A DNA stretch of 50,714 nt from Candidatus Zixiibacteriota bacterium (GTDB lineage: Bacteria; Zixibacteria; MSB-5A5; WJJR01; JAJRUJ01): NCBI GenBank assembly GCA_024277855.1, contig JAJRUJ010000031.1, forward strand, positions 1 through 50,714. Direction: 5' to 3'. This document shows positions 3 to 39,759 of this stretch, piece after piece (positions within the stretch are counted from its first letter, which is position 1; each line of letters begins with the position of its first letter). Both the position numbers and the translations under genes were made by a program. The notes below the pieces were generated by a model. It did no database searches and was not told where the DNA came from. It was given only the letters and a program-made list of their open reading frames with translations.

Positions 3-3000
3 GCCGGTGAATGTGATGCGGTGGTCGATTTTGCGATTGATTTCACCGACAATTGCTCCGGCGGCAGTGTTGTGGCTTCGCCGGCTTCGGGCAGCGTATT
101 CCCGATCGGCACGACTCCGGTGACAGTCACCGCGACCGATGACGTCGGCAACACGGATGTATGCACTTTCGATGTAACGGTCAACGACACCGAAGACCCG
201 ATAATCACCTGTCCGGGTGATCTCGCGATTGGCGATCAGGACCCGACTGGTCCGGAATTTACCGGTTATGCCACGGCGACCGACAATTGCTCAGATCCGA
301 CCGTTACCTACGCTGATTCGCAAACCGATAACGTGATTACGCGTACCTGGACAGCGACCGATGGCAGCGGGAACTCTGCTTCTTGTGATCAGCTGATCAC
401 GATCACTTCGGCAAACCTGGCCCCGCAGATCACCTGCCCGGGTCCGCAGGAAGTTGCTGTGGACGGCCTTCTGGAATTTGTTGTTACCGCGACCGATCCG
501 AATGACGATCCGGTGACAATCACGATGGAAGATGCGTCTGTCGGCGGTAGTTTCGATGGTACGGACTTCTCGCTGACTCCGGATTGTGCCGCGCTGGGCC
601 TGCATACGTACACGTTCATTGCCTCCGACGGTGATCTTGCCGACACTTGTTATGTCGATATTACCGTTGTCGACGGCACCGATCCGGTGATCACCTGTCC
701 GGACAACCTGATTGTCGAATGCGGCGATCCGACCGATCCGACGGCCACCGGCGAGGCGACGGCAACCGATAATTGTGACCTTGACATCACTATCGAATAC
801 GCCGACAATGTGATCCCCGGCAACTGCGAAAATAGTGTAATGATCGAACGGACCTGGACGGCCACCGATGATGCCGGCAATACTCATAGTTGTGTCCAGA
901 CCATTGAAGTCCTCGACACAACGTCGCCGCAGATCACCTGTCCGGCGGACATCACGGTTCCTGAAGGTCAAACCGATCCGGCATTTACGGGCGAAGCAAA
1001 CGCCAGTGACATTTGTGATTTCAGACCGAATGTCACTTTCGATGATGTCCGGATCGATGACACGATTACTCGGACCTGGACGGCCACCGACAACTGCGGC
1101 AATCTGATCACGTGTGTTCAGACCATCACAGTTGAGCCGGCCGTTGAATGCGGCGACACCTGCTGGGTCGGTGAAATTTCCGGCAACGTTGGTGAAACCG
1201 TTGCAGTCCCGGTGAGCTTCAAAAACTGTGTTGCGCTCGGCGGCCTTTCCGTCCCGCTGTCCTGGGACCCTGACTGTGTGACGCTGGAATCGATTGACTG
1301 GACCGGCTCACGCGTTGAAGGTGTGGTCACCAAGTCTGACGCTTCCAGTATCAACAACACCGACAACAACGTGTTCCTGTATGCGGTCCTGATTTCTGAA
1401 GATCCGATCGCGCCGGGTGAGGGCTTGTTTGCGACGTTGAACTTCACGATTAACAAATGTTGTGGCAGCCCGATTGTAATCGACACGCTGTTTATCCCGC
1501 CAACCGGCTATTACATGTTCGCCGATGTTGACGGTTATGAAGTTCCGACTGAGTTTGTCAGCGGTGGAATTACCGTCGAGCCGGGCGAGATGAATGTGCT
1601 GGTCGATCCGGCTCAATTCGATTTCGAGGCCACCGCAGGCGCCACTACGCCGTTGTGCGAACAGTTGGCCATCACCACCGATTACTGTGGTGAAAGCGGC
1701 TGGGCCCTCGCCTACGACGCATCCTGGCTTTCAGTCAGCAGTGATAATGGTGCTTTCCCGGGCAACGTCGATGTCTGTGTCGATCCGACCGGATTGCCCG
1801 CCGATGTCTATGTTGATTCCATCTGTGTGTCGGAAGCGATCCTCGGGGCGAAAACCCCCTTGGAATGCACCTGGGTCGTGGTTACGCTGACCATCACAGA
1901 ACCCGAACCGATCATCATGCTGGATGCCGGCCTGTTCCAGTTCGAGGTTACCGACTGCGAACCAAACAGCACCGACGGTGATACATTCAACATCACCAAT
2001 ATGGGTGGCGGTACGCTCAACTGGTCGGCCACCTGGACCAACGGCTGGCTGGATGTTTCCCCGACCTCCGATACGGCTCCGACCGAGGTTGCTGTTTCGG
2101 TCAATGGTTTTGGGCTGCCGGCCGATTCCTACAAAGACACAATTAAAATCACCGGTAATGCAATAAACTCGCCGCAATACGTCATTGTCGAGATGACAGT
2201 CACCGAATGCCCGCAGGCCGACACTGTCTGGGTTGGCTCCGGCTTCGGCGGTCTGGGTGATATCGTGACGATCCCGGTGGAATTCTCCAATTCGCAGCTC
2301 CTTTCCGGTATCACCGTGCCTCTGCACTACACCGGCACGAATGTTGTTGCCGTTTCCGGCGACTTTGCCGGTTCGCGGGTTGATTACCTCAGTGAGAAGA
2401 GCGTGACGATCGATGATGTCGCGCAGACAATCTGCATCGCGGCAATCCCGATCACCGAAGATCTGATTCCGGCGGGCGATGGTTTGCTGGTCAATCTGAA
2501 CTTCGAAGTCGTCTCCACCGACGGCTGCCCGAGCATCGAGCCGGTCGAAGTATTCATCGACTCGCAGTATATCGCTCCTGGTTGCGAACTGATGTTTGTC
2601 GACGAACAAGCCGATCCGGTCTACCCGGAATTTTATGCCGGTTCGATCGGGATCGAATGCCCGGGTGGCATCTCCGGTATCGTCGAAGAAGATCAGGGCG
2701 GCGGTATTGACGGGTGCATCGAAGTCTGGACGTCCTACCCCGATGGCGAGTTGATCATCGATGGTTGTGCCGGTCCGGACGGCAGCTTTGAATTCACCGA
2801 CCTGCGGGATGGCTGCTACGACCTCCGGGTCATCCGTGAAGGGTACTGCCCGGTAGTTGAAGAAGTGTGCAGCCCGGCCAGTGGCGTGATTATCACGATG
2901 TATCCGATTCCTGAGCCGGTGGTGACACCGTTTGTCGCCGATTTCTGGACAACCTCGGCTACACTTTATGGTGTGCCGCTGAAAGTCGGCGATGTAATTA

Positions 3001-4415
3001 CCGCCGAGAATTCTGACGGCACAGTCTGCGGTGTCGCCTATGTCGAGACGCCGGGTGAGTTCCTGATCCACGTCTACGGTGACGACACCCTCACCACTCC
3101 GAACGACATAGAAGGCGCGGCCGACGGCGAACGGGTGACTTTCTACCTTAACTGCGATTGCCCGCTCGAAGCAGAAAACCTCTGGGTCAACCACGGCTCG
3201 TTCGAAGAAGAGTTTAGTTTCGAGTGCATCCGCACTCAGGAAATCGAGCTTTGCGGCGATTGGACCCTGATCTCTTACAACGTCACAGTTGACGATCAGT
3301 CGCTGGATAACGTCATGTCCTCGATTGCCGGTTCGTATGAGCAGGTGATCAGTTCGACCTGTGATCAGGGAGCAATTACCTGGGATATCAATCGTCCGTC
3401 AAACTTGAACGACTTGAATTCCATGGACAACGAACACGGATACTGGGTCTATGCACCGGGTCCGTTGTCGATGTCGGTCACCGGTCTGCCGATCGATCCC
3501 GCGGAGATGCCGCTTGATCTCTGCAGCGATTGGAACCTGATCTCGTACTTGCCGAACGAGTCCGACGACTTGACCCACGCTTTCGGTTCAATCGACGGCC
3601 TGTATGATTTCGTCTTCGGTTTCGATTGCGAATTCGGCGCCCAGACCTATGACCCGCAACGTCCGGACATTCTCAACGACCTGAGCTGCCTCGATCCGGG
3701 GCACGGTTACTGGGTGAAGATGGCCGACGCGGCCACGCTGACCTACCCGAGTTCCGGGTATGATTGTAACGACGTGATCGATCCGCTGAGCAAACCGGTC
3801 AACTTAACGACAATCGTCAAACCCACCCCGTGGGTGTGCGACTTCTGGTCATACGGTTCAGTTGATGGGCCGGCCGAAGGCGCAATCCTGACCGTCTTTG
3901 ACGAAGACGGTGTGGCGTGCGGTCAGACGCAGGTCCTTGATAACGGTATGTTCATGATTCACGTCTACGGTGACGATGCGAAGACTGAACGCGACGAAGG
4001 CGCCGCCGCCGGTTCGAAGTTGAGCTTCAAAGCCAACGGCGACGTTTACGAAGTTACCGGCAATAACAACTGGACCGAACGCGGGTCGTTTGAAGTCTCA
4101 CTTACCCGGTCGGGCAGCAGCGCCCCGGTGCCGAATGCGTACGAGTTGTCGCAGAACTATCCGAACCCGTTCAACCCGCAGACCACAATCCGGTTCCGCA
4201 TCCAGGACAACATGCGCGTGACGATGACGATCTTTAACGTCCTCGGTCAGCAAGTGCGTAACCTGCTCGACGAGCAGCAGATGTCGGCCGGAGAACACGA
4301 AGTTGTCTGGAACGGTAAGTTTGACGATGGCACGAGTGCCGAGAGTGGTGTGTATTTCTACCGCATTTCCACCGAGGCATTCACCGATGTACGCAAGATG
4401 ACTTTGCTGAAGTAA
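3..4415 (+). CDS. Secreted multidomain HYR/cohesin-like protein with FlgD-like C-terminal sorting domain (5' partial)
   Basis: The reading frame is open through the left edge, so the N-terminus and any signal peptide are missing. Visible modules in order: about four HYR-type domains with repeated ITCP and ATDNC/WTATD motifs plus one Ig-like unit (nt 3-1140); a cohesin-like domain (about 1150-1580); two BACON-like beta domains (about 1600-2205); a second cohesin-like domain (about 2218-2655); a carboxypeptidase-regulatory-like fold with the motif EVWTSYPDG (about 2668-2900); two copies of a module containing IHVYGDD (about 2925-3150 and 3805-4045) flanking two copies of a DW-LISY...GYW unit (about 3235-3460 and 3525-3730); and a C-terminal FlgD-like domain with NYPNPFNP (about 4125-4415). 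Cys is frequent, as expected for an exported protein. The C-terminal domain type is linked to type IX-like secretion and surface anchoring in FCB bacteria. Function is inferred to be surface adhesion or scaffolding; the ligand is unknown. Confidence 0.85.
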   Translation, partial: AGECDAVVDFAIDFTDNCSGGSVVASPASGSVFPIGTTPVTVTATDDVGNTDVCTFDVTVNDTEDPIITCPGDLAIGDQDPTGPEFTGYATATDNCSDPTVTYADSQTDNVITRTWTATDGSGNSASCDQLITITSANLAPQITCPGPQEVAVDGLLEFVVTATDPNDDPVTITMEDASVGGSFDGTDFSLTPDCAALGLHTYTFIASDGDLADTCYVDITVVDGTDPVITCPDNLIVECGDPTDPTATGEATATDNCDLDITIEYADNVIPGNCENSVMIERTWTATDDAGNTHSCVQTIEVLDTTSPQITCPADITVPEGQTDPAFTGEANASDICDFRPNVTFDDVRIDDTITRTWTATDNCGNLITCVQTITVEPAVECGDTCWVGEISGNVGETVAVPVSFKNCVALGGLSVPLSWDPDCVTLESIDWTGSRVEGVVTKSDASSINNTDNNVFLYAVLISEDPIAPGEGLFATLNFTINKCCGSPIVIDTLFIPPTGYYMFADVDGYEVPTEFVSGGITVEPGEMNVLVDPAQFDFEATAGATTPLCEQLAITTDYCGESGWALAYDASWLSVSSDNGAFPGNVDVCVDPTGLPADVYVDSICVSEAILGAKTPLECTWVVVTLTITEPEPIIMLDAGLFQFEVTDCEPNSTDGDTFNITNMGGGTLNWSATWTNGWLDVSPTSDTAPTEVAVSVNGFGLPADSYKDTIKITGNAINSPQYVIVEMTVTECPQADTVWVGSGFGGLGDIVTIPVEFSNSQLLSGITVPLHYTGTNVVAVSGDFAGSRVDYLSEKSVTIDDVAQTICIAAIPITEDLIPAGDGLLVNLNFEVVSTDGCPSIEPVEVFIDSQYIAPGCELMFVDEQADPVYPEFYAGSIGIECPGGISGIVEEDQGGGIDGCIEVWTSYPDGELIIDGCAGPDGSFEFTDLRDGCYDLRVIREGYCPVVEEVCSPASGVIITMYPIPEPVVTPFVADFWTTSATLYGVPLKVGDVITAENSDGTVCGVAYVETPGEFLIHVYGDDTLTTPNDIEGAADGERVTFYLNCDCPLEAENLWVNHGSFEEEFSFECIRTQEIELCGDWTLISYNVTVDDQSLDNVMSSIAGSYEQVISSTCDQGAITWDINRPSNLNDLNSMDNEHGYWVYAPGPLSMSVTGLPIDPAEMPLDLCSDWNLISYLPNESDDLTHAFGSIDGLYDFVFGFDCEFGAQTYDPQRPDILNDLSCLDPGHGYWVKMADAATLTYPSSGYDCNDVIDPLSKPVNLTTIVKPTPWVCDFWSYGSVDGPAEGAILTVFDEDGVACGQTQVLDNGMFMIHVYGDDAKTERDEGAAAGSKLSFKANGDVYEVTGNNNWTERGSFEVSLTRSGSSAPVPNAYELSQNYPNPFNPQTTIRFRIQDNMRVTMTIFNVLGQQVRNLLDEQQMSAGEHEVVWNGKFDDGTSAESGVYFYRISTEAFTDVRKMTLLK

Positions 4416-4445
4416 ACCGACTGGAATAGCCAGTCGTGACTGAAT

Positions 4446-4486
4446 AATCGGGTGGGCCGCCCACAGCGGGCGGTCCACCACCGATT
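4446..4486. other. Strong intergenic hairpin between two secreted-protein genes
   Basis: A 12-bp stem (4451-4462 with 4468-4479, one G-T pair) closes a 5-nt loop and is extended by an outer aatcg/cgatt pairing. There is no following T-run, so it is a weak candidate as an intrinsic terminator. It lies about 30 bases after the upstream stop codon and just before the ribosome binding site of the next gene, so it could stabilise or attenuate a shared transcript. Confidence 0.5.
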
Positions 4487-4499
4487 GGGGGTTTATTTC

Positions 4500-5834
4500 A
4501 TGACCGTTTTCCGGAGACTCATTCTGAGGATCGCGGCGGTCGGGGTGTTTTTACTGGTGTTGGCCGGTGGTGCGGTTAATGCCGATATTACTGGTTCTGT
4601 TGTCGACGAGGCATTTCAGCCGCTCGTCGACGCCCACGTTGAGTTGTGGACCTCCTATCCAGACGGCACGAAATTGGCGGCAACGCTGTCGGGTGCTGAT
4701 GGGAGTTATTCCTTTTCCGGTTTTAGCGGAAGCTCGTACGACATACGGGCGTGGAAAGGTGACATTCCCACCAAACTATATTTTCCAACCGTTTTATTTG
4801 ATATTCCACAGCCGTTTCCCGGACTATTGTTTATCGGGCTGGTTAAAACTCCTGACGTTCCCGGCAGCCCGGTCCAAACCTGTGATTTCTCCGACACGTC
4901 GTTTACCTCGACTTACCTGGGGTTTCCAATCCAGCGGGGTGATGTCGTCCAGGTTGTTGATCCCGATGAAACGATCTGTGGAATGTTGACTCTTCCCACC
5001 CCGGGCACGGAAGGAGCATATCTGGTCCATGTCTATGGCGACCTGGGTTCGACCGTCGGCACCGACGAAGGCGCCGTTGGCGGCGATACCCTGAAATTTT
5101 TAATTAACAACAAGGCGGCCGAAGTAATCGATACCGTTGCAATCTGGCAAACGGGGAATTCCTTCTACCTGCCGTTGACCGGCACATCGGTTGATATCGA
5201 GGGTGTTTCTGTCGGCAATCCCGCCGATGAAATGGTGTCACCCGGGGCGGTCATCAATCTGGAATTCAAAGTTACCAATACCGGCAATCACGCAGATGCT
5301 TTCGATTTGCAGGCCGTTTCGGTTGGCGACTGGACGGTTTCGATGCCGGGGGGCGCAGCGACGGGAACTTTGAATCCGGGTGAGTTTGAATTGGTGGCGG
5401 TAACGGTCAATGTGCCGCCGGATGTCCTCGCTAATGAAGAGGAGCAGGTGTTTCTCTCGGCGACGTCGCAGGCCAATTATGCAACTTTGGGTGTGGGACA
5501 TGGGACGCTCACGGCCGAGAGTGTCGGGGTTTTTGAAGATGAAACCGGTGTGCCTGAAACCTATTTTCTCGCGCAGAACTATCCCAATCCGTTTAACCCG
5601 TCGACCAAAATTTCTTACGGTCTGGAAGTTGGCGGCCACACTACGATCACCGTTTACAACCTCCTCGGGCAGAGGGTGGCCGGCTTGCTGGATGAATTCC
5701 AATCGGCGGGTAACCATACCGCCACCTGGGACGGTCTTGATAGTCAAAACGAGCCGGTCCCCAGCGGAATCTATTTCTACCGCATTCGCTCGGGAGCATT
5801 TGAACAAACCCGCAAGATGGTCCTGATGAAATAG
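4500..5834 (+). CDS. Secreted CarboxypepD_reg-like / NEW3-like protein with FlgD-like C-terminal sorting domain
   Basis: This 444-residue protein starts at ATG 4500, preceded by a GGGGG tract. That start gives a clean signal peptide (positively charged MTVFRR, hydrophobic stretch, cleavage near GGAVNA). An upstream in-frame start at 4452 would place a charged tail before the signal and lie inside the hairpin. Order: carboxypeptidase-regulatory-like domain with ELWTSYPDG (residues about 28-110), a module containing VHVYGD and a GAVGGD tail (about 125-215), a NEW3/CARDB-like domain with KVTNTGNHAD (about 235-345), and an FlgD-like C-terminal domain with NYPNPFNP ending RKMVLMK. Three of these modules also occur in the large gene just upstream, so the two are related by module shuffling. 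Probably exported to the cell surface; the ligand is unknown. Confidence 0.8.
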   Translation: MTVFRRLILRIAAVGVFLLVLAGGAVNADITGSVVDEAFQPLVDAHVELWTSYPDGTKLAATLSGADGSYSFSGFSGSSYDIRAWKGDIPTKLYFPTVLFDIPQPFPGLLFIGLVKTPDVPGSPVQTCDFSDTSFTSTYLGFPIQRGDVVQVVDPDETICGMLTLPTPGTEGAYLVHVYGDLGSTVGTDEGAVGGDTLKFLINNKAAEVIDTVAIWQTGNSFYLPLTGTSVDIEGVSVGNPADEMVSPGAVINLEFKVTNTGNHADAFDLQAVSVGDWTVSMPGGAATGTLNPGEFELVAVTVNVPPDVLANEEEQVFLSATSQANYATLGVGHGTLTAESVGVFEDETGVPETYFLAQNYPNPFNPSTKISYGLEVGGHTTITVYNLLGQRVAGLLDEFQSAGNHTATWDGLDSQNEPVPSGIYFYRIRSGAFEQTRKMVLMK

Positions 5835-7029: not shown

Positions 7030-7632
7030 TTAGTCTTCACTCGGAGCGAAGCGTTCTTCGAGGATTTCGCAGAGGATGTGCAGGCAGAATAGATGTGTTT
7101 CCTGAATACGCTGGGTGCTCTCGGCAGGAATGACCACGGCAATATCGGCCAGTTCCGCCGCCTCTCCCCCGGTTTTGCCCAGCAGACCCATCACCCGCAT
7201 TTTCAAATCGTGAGCAGTGTTGACCGCATGAACCAGGTTTGATGAAACTCCCGACGTTGACAAGACCAGGAGGCCGTCGCCCGGACGTCCGAGCGCCTCG
7301 AGTTGACGCGAGAAGATATAATCGAAACCGAAATCATTAGCTGTGGCGGTGAGGATCGAGGTGTCGGTGGTCAGCGCAATCGCCGGCAACGGGTCACGCT
7401 TTTGCGTGGCGTCGAGTCGGACCACCAGCTCGGTCGCCAGGTGCTGGGCATCGCCTGCCGAACCGCCGTTGCCGCAGATATACAACCGACGGCCGGATTC
7501 GAACACCGCCGTCAGCATATCGGTCAGCGCCGCGAACTCGTCGAGACATTGTTCGATAAACGCCTGCTTAACCGCATAGTTTTCCTGAGCGCGCGCGGTC
7601 AGATAGTCGACAAACGATGACGAATCAACCAT
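7030..7632 (-). CDS. gmhA: Phosphoheptose isomerase (SIS domain)
   Basis: The 200-residue protein converts sedoheptulose 7-phosphate to D-glycero-D-manno-heptose 7-phosphate, the first step of the ADP-heptose pathway for the LPS core. The sugar isomerase fold is shown by YICGNGGSAGDAQHLATEL (residues about 50-68), TSGVSSNLV (about 120-128) and the C-terminal AESTQRIQETHLFCLHILCE helix typical of GmhA. Start at ATG 7632 was chosen because the family begins just before the first helix and the longer frame only adds residues antisense to the neighbour. Its first 8 bases overlap the end of the GGGP synthase gene, suggesting translational coupling. It links functionally to the heptosyltransferase gene at 36835-37908 in the same window. 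Confidence 0.9.
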   Translation of the reverse strand: MVDSSSFVDYLTARAQENYAVKQAFIEQCLDEFAALTDMLTAVFESGRRLYICGNGGSAGDAQHLATELVVRLDATQKRDPLPAIALTTDTSILTATANDFGFDYIFSRQLEALGRPGDGLLVLSTSGVSSNLVHAVNTAHDLKMRVMGLLGKTGGEAAELADIAVVIPAESTQRIQETHLFCLHILCEILEERFAPSED

Positions 7633-8398
7633 TGCTTTGCTCCGCCCCGGTCGCCACCGGGTGGGCGGCGGCGGCCATCTCTTTGAGGAAGCCGACTGTG
7701 GGGTTAAACTCCAGCGCACTGCCCACCACGACAATATCCGCCCCGGCCTTGACTGCCGCGCGAACCTGTTCGGGGGTAGTCAGACCACCCCCGACGATCA
7801 GCGGGATGGAAATATATTCGCTAACCTGTCGGACCATCTCGACCGGCACCGGTCGGGGTGCTCCCGAACCGGCCTCAAGGTAGACAAATTTCATGCCCAG
7901 GTATTCGGCGGCCAGTGCATGGTATTTGGCGATGTCCGGTTTGCCCGCCGGCACCGGCAGGGTTTGGCTGATATGCTGAACGGCGGTGATTGCTCCGGAT
8001 TCGACCAGAATGTAACCGGTGGGGATCGGCTCGATGCCGAACGATCTGATCGCCGGTGCTCCCGCCACCTGTTCGCCAATCAAAAATTGCGCATTGCGCC
8101 CGGAAACCAATGAAAGGTAAAGAATCGCATCGACAAATTTGTTAACCTGGATCGCCGAACCGGGGAACAAGATCAACGGCAAATCGGTATTGGCCCGGAC
8201 ATTTTTTATTACGGCCTCGGCCGCCGGCGAATACCCCGTGCTGGTGCCGATCAGGATCGCATCCACTCCCGCTTCGCGCGCCTTTTCCCAGCGCGGATCG
8301 ATCATTTCGGGCAATACGCGGGCCGGATCGATCAACCACAGAAAACGGCCGCCGTTGCGGGCCTCGGTCAAATTCCGATAGATATTTCCGTTTTTCAT
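7625..8398 (-). CDS. Geranylgeranylglyceryl phosphate synthase family protein (GGGPS, group II)
   Basis: This 257-residue TIM-barrel prenyltransferase family joins a polyprenyl diphosphate to sn-glycerol-1-phosphate, the first ether bond of archaeal-type lipids. Diagnostic segments are visible: LIDP (residues 22-25), LILFPGS (75-81), GYILVES (128-134), YLEAGSGAPRPVP (173-185), VGGGLTTPE (202-210) and ADIVVVGSALE (220-230). These match group II enzymes of methanogens and some Bacteroidota better than Bacillus PcrB. The ATG at 8398 overlaps the alaS stop (ATGA), and its own end overlaps gmhA. No G1P dehydrogenase or DGGGP synthase gene lies in this window, so whether complete ether lipids are made cannot be judged here. 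Family assignment is firm; the exact prenyl chain length is not. Confidence 0.88.
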   Translation of the reverse strand: MKNGNIYRNLTEARNGGRFLWLIDPARVLPEMIDPRWEKAREAGVDAILIGTSTGYSPAAEAVIKNVRANTDLPLILFPGSAIQVNKFVDAILYLSLVSGRNAQFLIGEQVAGAPAIRSFGIEPIPTGYILVESGAITAVQHISQTLPVPAGKPDIAKYHALAAEYLGMKFVYLEAGSGAPRPVPVEMVRQVSEYISIPLIVGGGLTTPEQVRAAVKAGADIVVVGSALEFNPTVGFLKEMAAAAHPVATGAEQSNG

Positions 8399-11142: not shown

Positions 11143-11763
11143 TCATAAATCGGGGAAATGCTCGTCAAGCGTACCACGGATATCACCGTAAGAAAACCCC
11201 CGCCGGGCCAAAAAACTCATCAGGCGGCGTTTGAACACCTCCGGCGCCAACCGGCCCGCCGAACGCATCCGTTTCTTAATCAGATCAATCAGCAACGCCT
11301 GCTCGGTCTGCTCCGGGAAATGTTCGTCGAGCGCCTCTTTGGCCAATTCCGGTGAAATTCCTCTTTGCTGCAATTCGACACTGAGCATTCGTCGACCACG
11401 TGGATGACCGTTACAGCGTCGTTCGATCCAGAAGGAGGCGAAACGCCGGTCATCAAGATAGCCGCGCGTCACAAGGTCGTCCAGGACGGCCTTGATCGTA
11501 CCACCGGCATACTTTTTCTGCTTCAACTTTCCGGCAAGTTCGGCCCGTGAGTGTTCCCGGCGTGCCAGCGACAGCAACGCCGATTCCCGCACCGCGGCAA
11601 AGGTCATTGCCCGACGTAACTCGGGATCGACCTCCATCCCCATCTTAAGTCGGAGATCACTCGCCGCTTTGCCTGAAAGACCGATGAAAAACTCGTCGTC
11701 GAGGTATACCGAGACCCGTCGAGGGCCGCCTTTTTGCCGTTCCAGCCGGGTAATCCGCGTCAT
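11143..11763 (-). CDS. recX: Regulatory protein RecX
   Basis: The 206-residue product is a RecX-family modulator that binds RecA filaments and inhibits or tunes recombination. It is all-helical after a short N-terminal segment (RRVSVYLDDEF). It carries RecX signatures: ALLSLARREHSRAEL, the LVTRGYLDDRRFASFWIE segment with the conserved YLDD, and RRMLSVELQQRGIS. ATG 11763 was chosen because a GGAG lies about 8 bases upstream and the longer frame adds a non-conserved stretch. recA is not in the window. It lies upstream of alaS in the same direction, an arrangement (recX-alaS) seen in other bacteria. Confidence 0.88.
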   Translation of the reverse strand: MTRITRLERQKGGPRRVSVYLDDEFFIGLSGKAASDLRLKMGMEVDPELRRAMTFAAVRESALLSLARREHSRAELAGKLKQKKYAGGTIKAVLDDLVTRGYLDDRRFASFWIERRCNGHPRGRRMLSVELQQRGISPELAKEALDEHFPEQTEQALLIDLIKKRMRSAGRLAPEVFKRRLMSFLARRGFSYGDIRGTLDEHFPDL

Positions 11764-12095
11764 AGGACTCCATTCATCTATCCGCAAGTAAACAATCAAA
11801 TCTTCCAAGGACAAGGGACATTGATTACCGATTTTGGTGACGAACAATCGTCGGTTTGCGGCGTACAAGGAAAGTGCGATGGGAGCGCATGGGTGGCTTG
11901 TCTATTCGGTCCAGCGCACAAGTTTTGACCCGATATTCCGATGTAAAGTATATGGGCCACAAGATGATGGTGGTCCGGATCGGGAATCATCGGCAACAAA
12001 TGGCCATTGCAGCGGATCCTCGATGAGTGTATGCTGTCAGCTGAGAGCGGCAGGTAACCGACCGACTCGGGGAAAAATCAAGGGGAGTCAAGGAA
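11764..12095. other. Divergent intergenic region between recX and pckA
   Basis: The 332 bases hold no supportable gene. They should contain promoters for recX (leftward) and pckA (rightward). The pckA ribosome binding region (aaggggag, then aagga) lies in the last 25 bases. One sigma-70-like candidate is listed separately; nothing else stands out. Confidence 0.6.
11925..11954 (+). promoter_or_regulatory. Candidate promoter for pckA
   Basis: TTGACC (11925-11930) and TATATG (11949-11954) are separated by 18 bases, about 140 bases upstream of pckA. This is a sequence-only guess; the promoter consensus of this lineage is unknown. Confidence 0.25.
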
Positions 12096-36834: not shown

Positions 36835-37908
36835 CTATCCGAATCGGCGTCGGCTGTCAATCGCTTTGGCGCCCTTGCCGGTTTTGGCGCGGACCGCGGC
36901 GTACACCTCGTCGACATCGATAAGTGTGAGACATTCCAACGGTTTGTCTTTGCGCCAGCAATAGTTTTTATAGCATGGCTTGCAAAAGAGTGGTTTGGCG
37001 ATGGTGATCGCATGATCACTGTACGGTCCGACCTCATGCTGGTCTCCCGGGCCGGAAAGGACCACCGCCGGAACAGCAACCGCCGCCGCAACGTGGGCCA
37101 ATCCGGAATCATTACCGACAAATACCGCCGCTCGCCGGATCACTTCGGCGGTAAATTGCAGGGACCCTGCGCCCGTTAGGTCTATAATATTCTCCACTTC
37201 AGACAAACGGGCAATTTGTCCGGCAAGGTTTTTTTCCGCCGGCCCACCCACCAGAACAACGGCCAAACCATCGCCGGCTAATTGTCGGGCAAGCTGGGCG
37301 AATCGTTCGGGCATCCACATCTTATTTGGCTGGGCCGCTCCCGGTGCGATGGCCACATATGATTCAGCGGATTGACGATTGATGACAGCGGCAAATTCTG
37401 TTTCAATCCCGGCCGCGACCGGCAACGATAATTCGCGGACATAAATCGGCTGGTTGGTAATCAGCGTCAACAACTTCAGATAATATTCCACCCGGTGCGG
37501 GCGTTGCCCCTTGACCGGGAAATCCATTGAATCGGTCAAAAGCATCCGCCGCCAATCACCGCGATAGCCGACCCGGCAGGGAATGCGGGCAAGATAGAAA
37601 ATCATCGCGGCCGAAAACGAATTGGGTAAGGAAACTGCCAGATCAAATCCGTATCTTTTCAGATGCCGGGCATTGAGACGTGCCGCCGCCAAACCAGACC
37701 GGCCACGGGATTCATCAAGCGTCAGGATTTCGTCAATATCCAATCGGGCAGAATAAATGTCGGCTACCGTTTGACGGCAAAGACAGGTGATCCGCGACTG
37801 CGGCATATTCTCGCGGATCGAGGCGAAAAACGCTGTGGCCATGACGGCGTCACCGACCCAGTTCGGCGCACGGACGACGATGTTTTTTGCGGTGACGGAC
37901 ACATTCAT
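36835..37908 (-). CDS. waaF: ADP-heptose:LPS heptosyltransferase II (GT9)
   Basis: The 357-residue glycosyltransferase adds heptose from ADP-heptose to the growing LPS inner core at the cytoplasmic face of the inner membrane. Visible signatures: NWVGDAVMATAFF near the N-terminus, APGAAQPNKMWMPERFAQLA, VFVGNDSGLAHVAAAVAVP and GPGDQHEVGPYS, with a Cys-rich FCKPCYKNYCW near the C-terminus as in many WaaF. ATG 37908 overlaps the stop of the acyltransferase gene (ATGA); a longer frame is not conserved. GmhA at 7030-7632 supplies an earlier pathway step. Confidence 0.88.
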   Translation of the reverse strand: MNVSVTAKNIVVRAPNWVGDAVMATAFFASIRENMPQSRITCLCRQTVADIYSARLDIDEILTLDESRGRSGLAAARLNARHLKRYGFDLAVSLPNSFSAAMIFYLARIPCRVGYRGDWRRMLLTDSMDFPVKGQRPHRVEYYLKLLTLITNQPIYVRELSLPVAAGIETEFAAVINRQSAESYVAIAPGAAQPNKMWMPERFAQLARQLAGDGLAVVLVGGPAEKNLAGQIARLSEVENIIDLTGAGSLQFTAEVIRRAAVFVGNDSGLAHVAAAVAVPAVVLSGPGDQHEVGPYSDHAITIAKPLFCKPCYKNYCWRKDKPLECLTLIDVDEVYAAVRAKTGKGAKAIDSRRRFG

Positions 37909-38789
37909 GATGAGTGTTTCCAGCGTCGATGTGTCCAGAGCCACTGTCCCGGTTGACGCCGGATATACCCTTCGAGGACCCGCGTATATGCCTGGGTCAC
38001 GGCAAGGATATCATCATCGAGCGAGCCGGTTGACTCAATCGGTAGTGGACCACCGGCCAATGCCTGATGACGGCCGTCATCCTGTCGGATTAAAACACCG
38101 TGCAGGATCGGGCAGCCGAGTTTCAGGGCAATCGCTGCCGGGCCGCGATGGGTGGCTGTCTGACGGCCAAAAAACTCCACCGGGACGCCGTCGTTACCCG
38201 CGTATTGGTCGGCGAGGATTGCCACCAGGCGGTTTCTTCGCAAAGACCTGATAATCTCTCGGCTGGCTTTCCGGGTGGGAATGATCCCGACCCCGTTTGC
38301 CCGACGCAGCGTATTGTAAAATGCATCGGCTGAGGTATTGCGCTGTGGCTTGACTACGACATCGATCGGCTGGCCCAATGCGGCCACCCAGGCGCCGAAT
38401 AATTCCCAATTCCCATAATGCGCCGAAAGTAATATCGCCCCCTTGCCTTCGGCCAGCGCCTCATCGAAAATATCCGGTGTAGCGAAATCTACCCGCGCCA
38501 AAATCTCTTTTTGCGACAACAGCGGGAACCGAAATACCTCGACCGCTGTTCGGCCGATATTTTCGAAAACCTGTTTGACCAGCGCACCGATTTCTGCTTC
38601 TGTCACTTCCTCGCCCAACGCTCGTCGGATATTATCAGCGGCAATTTCACGCCGACCGGATGCGAGCGTATGACCCAAAATGCCCAGCGTACGACCAAAT
38701 TCGCGGGCGGAGGCCTCCGGCAACGCGCGGGCAATCGCCGCCGCTGTTTTCAGGCCGAGAGTTTGCAGCATGTAGGATAATCTTTGCAT
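37905..38789 (-). CDS. lpxL: Lipid A biosynthesis acyltransferase (LpxL/HtrB family)
   Basis: The 294-residue membrane-associated acyltransferase adds a secondary acyl chain to lipid A. The HX4E catalytic motif HYGNWE is at residues 124-129. PQRNTSADAFYNTLRR, a diagnostic QYAGNDGVPVEFFGRQ segment and THRGPAAIALKLGCPI follow. ATG 38789 is 10 bases after the peptidase gene end; a longer in-frame start overlaps that gene. Which acyl chain and position are used (LpxL, LpxM or related) cannot be decided. It shows the cell makes lipid A. Confidence 0.88.
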   Translation of the reverse strand: MQRLSYMLQTLGLKTAAAIARALPEASAREFGRTLGILGHTLASGRREIAADNIRRALGEEVTEAEIGALVKQVFENIGRTAVEVFRFPLLSQKEILARVDFATPDIFDEALAEGKGAILLSAHYGNWELFGAWVAALGQPIDVVVKPQRNTSADAFYNTLRRANGVGIIPTRKASREIIRSLRRNRLVAILADQYAGNDGVPVEFFGRQTATHRGPAAIALKLGCPILHGVLIRQDDGRHQALAGGPLPIESTGSLDDDILAVTQAYTRVLEGYIRRQPGQWLWTHRRWKHSS

Positions 38790-38799
38790 CAGAAAGCGA

Positions 38800-39759
38800 T
38801 TACTCCCTGTTCCCCGGTCTTTGATCGAACATTTCCTCGGCCACCGCCGCTTGTTCCCATTCGGCAAGTTTCTTTTTGGTGCGCCACCGTTTCAATAAGT
38901 ACAAGATTATCAGCAGTCCGACCAGTAGAATCCAAAGCAGCATCGTATCGGAAAACAGCATTGCCCAGTTATATTTGTTGGCCAGATAACTATCGAATTC
39001 AGTTTGAAAGCCGGAGTACTTCAAACCAATGGCCGCCATGAATGCCCGATCCAGATTGTTACTCCGGCGCAATTCTTGCAGCAGGACCAAAAAAGATTTC
39101 CAACCATATTCCTGCAAAAAATAATTCATCGCCAGATACGACTGGGCATAAGCCAGTCGTGCCTCACCAACAGAGAATCGGTTCAGGGTTTCAATTCTCT
39201 TAAGGGGGACTATTCTGTCGGATAGCATGGCCCGCGCAACGAGCCAGTCATCGCCATATCGCCACTGGTGTCCGATCAACATCGCAAATCCCTCGTCCAT
39301 CCAACGGGGCGGGCGGGCACCGCCGGCAAGATCGTGCAAATACAAATGTGCGAGTTCATGGCGGAGCACTTCGACCAGGTTGACTTCATGGGGAAACAGA
39401 TACGGCGACAGGATGACTATCGTACGACGCGAGGGAATTGCGCAACCTGCACCCCAGTCGGGAAAATGGCCGCCAACGGTTGAATCGAATTGTTCCCGTC
39501 GAGTGGCCACGAGGACCGTGATCGTATCGCGCAACACGGCGCCCCCGCGCAAAACCAATTGTGTATACGTTGTGGTCAGGATCGAGTCAATCTGTCCAGC
39601 GAGTGCCCGGTCGTCGGAATGAACATTAAAAACCGGTCGCTGAGGATCACGATCGACGGCGGCGGCGGTTCCGGGGAAAATCCAGGCGGCGAATAATATC
39701 AGAAACGTTAGCAGCCGGTAACGACTCTGAACGCTGGAAAACACAATCAAAATCTTCAT
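38800..39759 (-). CDS. Membrane-anchored peptidase MA-like metalloprotease
   Basis: The 319-residue protein has a signal peptide (residues about 15-34), a zinc-peptidase domain with HELAH (134-138) and the third-ligand-type WMDEGFA (Glu156), and a C-terminal transmembrane segment (TMLLWILLVGLLIILYLL). The catalytic domain would thus face the periplasm. The pattern fits the MA-like gluzincin family. It overlaps AsmA by ATGA and lies 10 bases before the lipid A acyltransferase, so its job is probably envelope maintenance. The substrate is unknown. Confidence 0.8.
   Translation of the reverse strand: MKILIVFSSVQSRYRLLTFLILFAAWIFPGTAAAVDRDPQRPVFNVHSDDRALAGQIDSILTTTYTQLVLRGGAVLRDTITVLVATRREQFDSTVGGHFPDWGAGCAIPSRRTIVILSPYLFPHEVNLVEVLRHELAHLYLHDLAGGARPPRWMDEGFAMLIGHQWRYGDDWLVARAMLSDRIVPLKRIETLNRFSVGEARLAYAQSYLAMNYFLQEYGWKSFLVLLQELRRSNNLDRAFMAAIGLKYSGFQTEFDSYLANKYNWAMLFSDTMLLWILLVGLLIILYLLKRWRTKKKLAEWEQAAVAEEMFDQRPGNRE

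Follow-up and report, generated by a model that had tools for sequence, protein, structure and literature searches.

A group II GGGP synthase gene in an LPS-making Zixibacterium, its gene row and its partner genes across the phylum

What is a gene for an archaeal-type lipid enzyme doing in a bacterium that makes LPS? The question is raised by a Zixibacterial contig of 50,714 nucleotides (the whole stretch analysed, here called the window), in which a sequence-only reading had recognized a group II GGGP synthase (GGGPS) encoded together with GmhA, an LpxL-type acyltransferase and WaaF. If it is true that LPS-making bacteria also make archaeal-type ether lipids, archaeal and bacterial membranes are less sharply divided than is taught. 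The source is a metagenome-assembled genome (MAG) of 3.07 Mb in 129 contigs, with a completeness of 100% and a contamination of 2.9%, and it was analysed together with 132 relatives as a phylum set of 133 genomes, 79 of them of good quality. Members of the set have GGGPS sequences identical to those in named Zixibacteria records (L026 = L057, L025 = L089), which identifies the phylum as Zixiibacteriota. The features that the argument needs are the following.

7030..7632, minus strand: gmhA (sedoheptulose-7-phosphate isomerase), 200 aa from ATG
7625..8398, minus strand: group II GGGPS, 257 aa, ATG start, assigned from profile scores and catalytic residues
8395..10995, minus strand: alaS (alanine-tRNA ligase)
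11143..11868, minus strand: recX, first gene of the row recX-alaS-GGGPS-gmhA
36835..37944, minus strand: WaaF-type heptosyltransferase II (TIGR02195, 179.2 bits, cut-off 134.6)
37905..38867, minus strand: lipid A acyltransferase, LpxL type (PF03279, 185.8 bits)
Contig C47, 50969-51880: DGGGPS-like UbiA protein, assigned from its closest solved match (6m31) and both Asp motifs

All three envelope genes named in that reading are thus present in the window. At its very start, positions 3-5834 encode two large exported proteins whose C-termini bear, by eye, a sorting-like tail of the type FNPxTxI...GxYFYR...KMxLxK.

Identity of the GGGPS reading frame

The reading frame is open and intact. Curated profile searches place it above the cut-offs of NF003198 (272.5 bits against 247), TIGR01769 GGGP synthase (200.6 against 161.6), TIGR01768 (183.4 against 113.3) and the Pfam PcrB family (133.9 against 23.9). 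It falls far under those of the group I models (21.8-40 bits, the A. fulgidus type giving the 40) and of PcrB, the group Ib heptaprenylglyceryl phosphate synthase (NF003197, 29.9 bits against 260). Its closest solved structures are group II GGGP synthases, 4jej from F. johnsoniae (E 2.8e-51) foremost, with 4mm1 from M. thermautotrophicus also among the best (E 7e-49). These scores and solved relatives rule out a placement with PcrB-like or other TIM-barrel proteins. Together with the LPS genes of the window, they bear out the proposed group II GGGPS in an LPS-making FCB bacterium, and the motifs on which that proposal drew, LILFPGS, YLEAGSGAPRPVP and VGGG, are all in the frame.

The residues expected of a working enzyme are retained. 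Y129, Y173 and E175, assigned by motif and spacing in the alignment, are spaced as the catalytic Tyr/Tyr/Glu (residue roles from PMC9385802), and the G1P phosphate-binding residues S178-G179, G203-G205 and G226 are kept. The position that limits prenyl length holds V85, as small as V86 of the M. thermautotrophicus enzyme. At the hexamer anchor stands H142, where most of the 115 aligned homologues have Tyr or Phe; a histidine at this position is reported to be able to support hexamers (PMC9385802). The group IIb bacterial enzyme of F. johnsoniae (FjGGGPS, 4jej), about 42% identical, shares the fold family, the catalytic Tyr/Tyr/Glu, the phosphate-binding loops and a small limiter residue. It differs at the anchor, which is Arg in F. 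johnsoniae and Tyr or Phe in most FCB homologues, and the Zixibacterial protein has Ser at a position that is usually Thr in group II. The MtGGGPS numbering Y134/Y178/E180 printed in the review PMC9385802 fits FjGGGPS on structure-chain numbering. Bacillus PcrB belongs to the same superfamily and performs the same chemistry of prenyl transfer to glycerol phosphate; the Zixibacterial protein differs from it in its group, in its score against the PcrB model and in lacking an AraM partner. The GGGPS gene is real, and it is probably functional and inherited.

A conserved gene row and its inheritance

The end of alaS shares 4 bases (ATGA) with the beginning of GGGPS, and the end of GGGPS shares 8 bases with the beginning of gmhA, overlaps which suggest that the three genes are co-translated. 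The gmhA frame scores 181.8 bits against NCBIfam gmhA, under the cut-off of 209.5; read by eye, it retains the H-x3-E and Q-x7-H residues, and it is the sole clear GmhA copy in the genome.

Coupling to alaS and gmhA had been thought unusual, a view that the relatives overturn. The nearest one, a member of the same family (G125), has the identical row recX-alaS-GGGPS-gmhA with a GGGPS 77% identical, and among the flanks of about 1.5 kb at 30 GGGPS loci of the phylum, alaS is found in 28 and gmhA in 26. The arrangement is therefore the standard one of the phylum, which goes beyond Coleman 2019 and Villanueva 2020. In named FCB genomes, the full row alaS-GGGPS-gmhA is seen again in KSB1, in Kryptonia and in some of the Ignavibacteria. 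Many Ignavibacteria, and also Marinimicrobia, pair GGGPS with gmhA but lack alaS beside it, and different genes flank GGGPS in Bacteroidales, Saprospiraceae, Chlorobi and Poribacteria. Such coupling is thus widespread, and probably ancestral. A search of the open-access literature found no paper joining GGGP synthase and gmhA. In the window the row stops at gmhA. In many Zixibacteria gmhA is followed by a gene for an O-antigen ligase-like protein or a polysaccharide flippase (L027:1-863, L042:2804-3666, L044:2788-3681 and others), so that there the row extends into surface-glycan genes.

GGGPS itself was found in 98 of the 133 phylum genomes; of the 79 with good quality, 65 have it. In the GGGPS tree the window sequence groups with its own order (SH-aLRT 95%), the deeper forks being weak. 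Its single archaeal row sits on a long branch, so that the tree cannot place the bacterial clade relative to Archaea. Presence in most of the phylum and in much of the FCB group marks GGGPS as a normal inherited gene, ordinary for Zixiibacteriota, rather than an oddity.

Partner genes and the source of glycerol phosphate

The sequence-only reading had stated that some FCB bacteria carry GGGPS genes, and the literature confirms this. Coleman 2019 (PMC6431249) surveyed 12 FCB phyla, Zixibacteria among them, and reported both GGGPS and DGGGPS in every one. Villanueva 2020 (PMC7852524) described this gene set in MAGs of Ca. Cloacimonetes that lack CarS and G1PDH, and tested the enzymes in E. coli, where the Cloacimonetes GGGPS and DGGGPS yield archaeal-type lipids (PMC7852524; PMC6431249). 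The two papers disagree on G1PDH in Cloacimonetes, for Coleman 2019 found that enzyme, among those FCB phyla, only in Fibrobacteres and Cloacimonetes. A literature search found no report of archaeal-type diether lipids from any Zixibacterium.

How much of this gene set does the present genome hold? Profile searches found four UbiA proteins: MenA, one of the decaprenyl-phosphate phosphoribosyltransferase type, a chlorophyll-synthase-like protein beside cdsA, and the DGGGPS-like protein of contig C47. The last has as its only strong solved match the M. jannaschii DGGGPS 6m31 (E 6.7e-27) and carries both Asp motifs (N79/D83/D87 and D201/D204/D208), yet falls under the curated NCBIfam DGGGPS cut-offs (157.7 against 296 bits); the DGGGP synthase that was to be looked for thus has a candidate. 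Two GGR-family proteins exceed their cut-off. The one on contig C55 (TIGR02032, 214.6 bits, cut-off 158.8) matches the archaeal digeranylgeranylglycerophospholipid reductase 3oz2 with E 6e-58 and lies below the cut-off for the archaeal equivalogs. The second, at L008:1240-2388 on contig C47, scores 159.1 against 158.8, with some 15 kb between it and the DGGGPS-like gene. Since 22 of 43 sampled GGGPS-bearing relatives have no GGR homologue, GGR was rejected as an obligate partner. There are also two polyprenyl synthases and a CdsA, and bacterial CdsA is able to replace CarS (PMC7852524), for which the genome gave no match. On contig C94 the chlorophyll-synthase-like UbiA gene directly follows cdsA (L006:1330-3126, L017:7967-12645), and upstream of the pair are genes that resemble, by eye from their protein starts, tsf, pyrH, frr and uppS.

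The set is one already described for FCB bacteria, and GGGPS here accordingly belongs to a known kind. GGGPS, DGGGPS, GGR and polyprenyl synthases are common to the Cloacimonetes/FCB set (PMC7852524, PMC6431249) and this one, as is the absence of CarS and G1PDH; the differences are the phylum, the alaS/gmhA row and a GGR that is optional in Zixiibacteriota. The potential for archaeal-type lipids raised at the outset is thus strengthened by the DGGGPS-like UbiA, the archaeal-type GGR, the polyprenyl synthases and CdsA, and is weakened by the absence of CarS and EgsA/AraM.

EgsA/AraM was not found in the genome, its sole Fe-ADH_2 match being aroB in a shikimate cluster, which was rejected. Nor was a G1P dehydrogenase found in the 133 phylum genomes, where the best Fe-ADH_2 score was 45.5 bits and a very divergent G1PDH could escape; the same model matches control genomes that include M. 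jannaschii and B. subtilis. When two of the three highest-scoring phylum matches were read as ORFs, the first-ranked proved to be an iron alcohol dehydrogenase and the other AroB, and neither was kept as G1PDH. This phylum-wide absence, too, goes beyond Coleman 2019 and Villanueva 2020. The reading had proposed that a genome devoid of any G1P source would speak against GGGPS. The known source, EgsA/AraM, is indeed missing, but this does not refute GGGPS activity, because G1P lipids have been shown to form in E. coli without AraM and GGGP synthase to use G3P (PMC7852524, PMC9385802). According to a 2026 paper, E. coli must have another G1P route, but none is known (PMC13400652).

Joint loss and the competing explanations

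The main new support for GGGPS and DGGGPS acting together comes from the genomes that have lost them, and goes beyond the earlier papers. GGGPS is missing from 14 good phylum genomes. In five of these (G012, G043, G095, G116 and G117, two of them single contigs) the loss is clean, with alaS directly beside gmhA. A gmhA search dismissed seven others as probable assembly gaps, gmhA lying at the edge of a contig or close to it (G127, G056, G119) or being missing too (G130, G079, G085, G091). G021 and G104, in which gmhA has no adjoining alaS, were left unclassed. In G104 the gmhA homologue lies, by eye, between sugar kinase-like and HAD phosphatase-like genes (L163:391-2635), possibly a heptose cluster.

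The DGGGPS-like gene, present in 71 of the 79 good genomes, is missing in four of the five clean-loss genomes versus three of the 65 good GGGPS-bearing ones (Fisher one-sided p = 1.8e-4; p = 1.5e-3 with one genome per genus), in a comparison of small numbers that was chosen after seeing the data, that handles kinship only by the one-per-genus count, that takes UbiA presence from a single-query search and that for G043 and G095 draws on fragmented MAGs. The two genes, lost jointly, behave as one pathway, and the clean-loss genomes offer natural comparisons for it. Their joint retention and loss, with G1PDH absent throughout the phylum, sharpens the question of the source and handedness of the glycerol phosphate.

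Beyond what is observed here, namely the intact gene, its residues, the gene set and the joint loss in relatives, we consider it likely, with a probability of roughly 0.7, that GGGPS works as a group II enzyme making GGGP for a diether lipid together with the DGGGPS-like UbiA. GGGPS would join a diphosphate, presumably of a C20 isoprenoid, to glycerol phosphate, which may be G1P from a non-EgsA route or else G3P. The C47 UbiA would convert the product into an unsaturated diether phosphate, which the archaeal-type GGR of C55 may partly reduce and which CdsA could activate in place of CarS. A much broader proposal strikes us as distinctly doubtful: that the whole phylum Zixiibacteriota makes archaeal-type diether lipids beside LPS without a known G1P dehydrogenase, through an undescribed G1P source or G3P, and that the GGGPS-gmhA pairing reflects a heptose-bearing or outer-membrane role of the isoprenoid lipid. 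The pairing was not kept as proof of joint function, an argument weakened by the fact that alaS and gmhA remain adjacent where GGGPS is lost.

Conceivably, GGGPS instead makes a monoprenyl glycerol phosphate which, after removal of its phosphate, serves as a polyprenyl carrier or minor lipid, as with Bacillus PcrB, and no membrane diether is ever formed, the UbiA protein belonging to a different pathway. The absence of both G1PDH and CarS, the non-universal GGR and the company of gmhA and, often, an O-antigen ligase or flippase, that is, of cell-surface glycan genes, would suit such a role. We nevertheless hold it unlikely, since the scores part GGGPS from PcrB (NF003197 and the A. fulgidus type as against TIGR01769) and the C47 UbiA, which has both motifs of DGGGPS, is lost jointly with GGGPS.

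That GGGPS runs in reverse, degrading archaeal lipids taken up as food, as suggested in Coleman 2019 (PMC6431249), is in keeping with the lack of G1PDH across the phylum. It is very improbable for a chromosomal gene in a housekeeping row that is vertically inherited and lost jointly with the DGGGPS-like gene, and no uptake or catabolic genes were seen among its immediate neighbours. Moreover, pyrophosphate is released in the forward direction, and reversal should be difficult. A functionless relic or binning contaminant, which the fragmented and slightly contaminated MAG and the dispensability of GGGPS in five relatives might suggest, is scarcely credible and is already contradicted by residue conservation and by synteny, the gene having intact catalytic residues, the same row and 77% identity in a same-family genome, a place within its own order in the tree and a maintained presence in most good genomes of the phylum.
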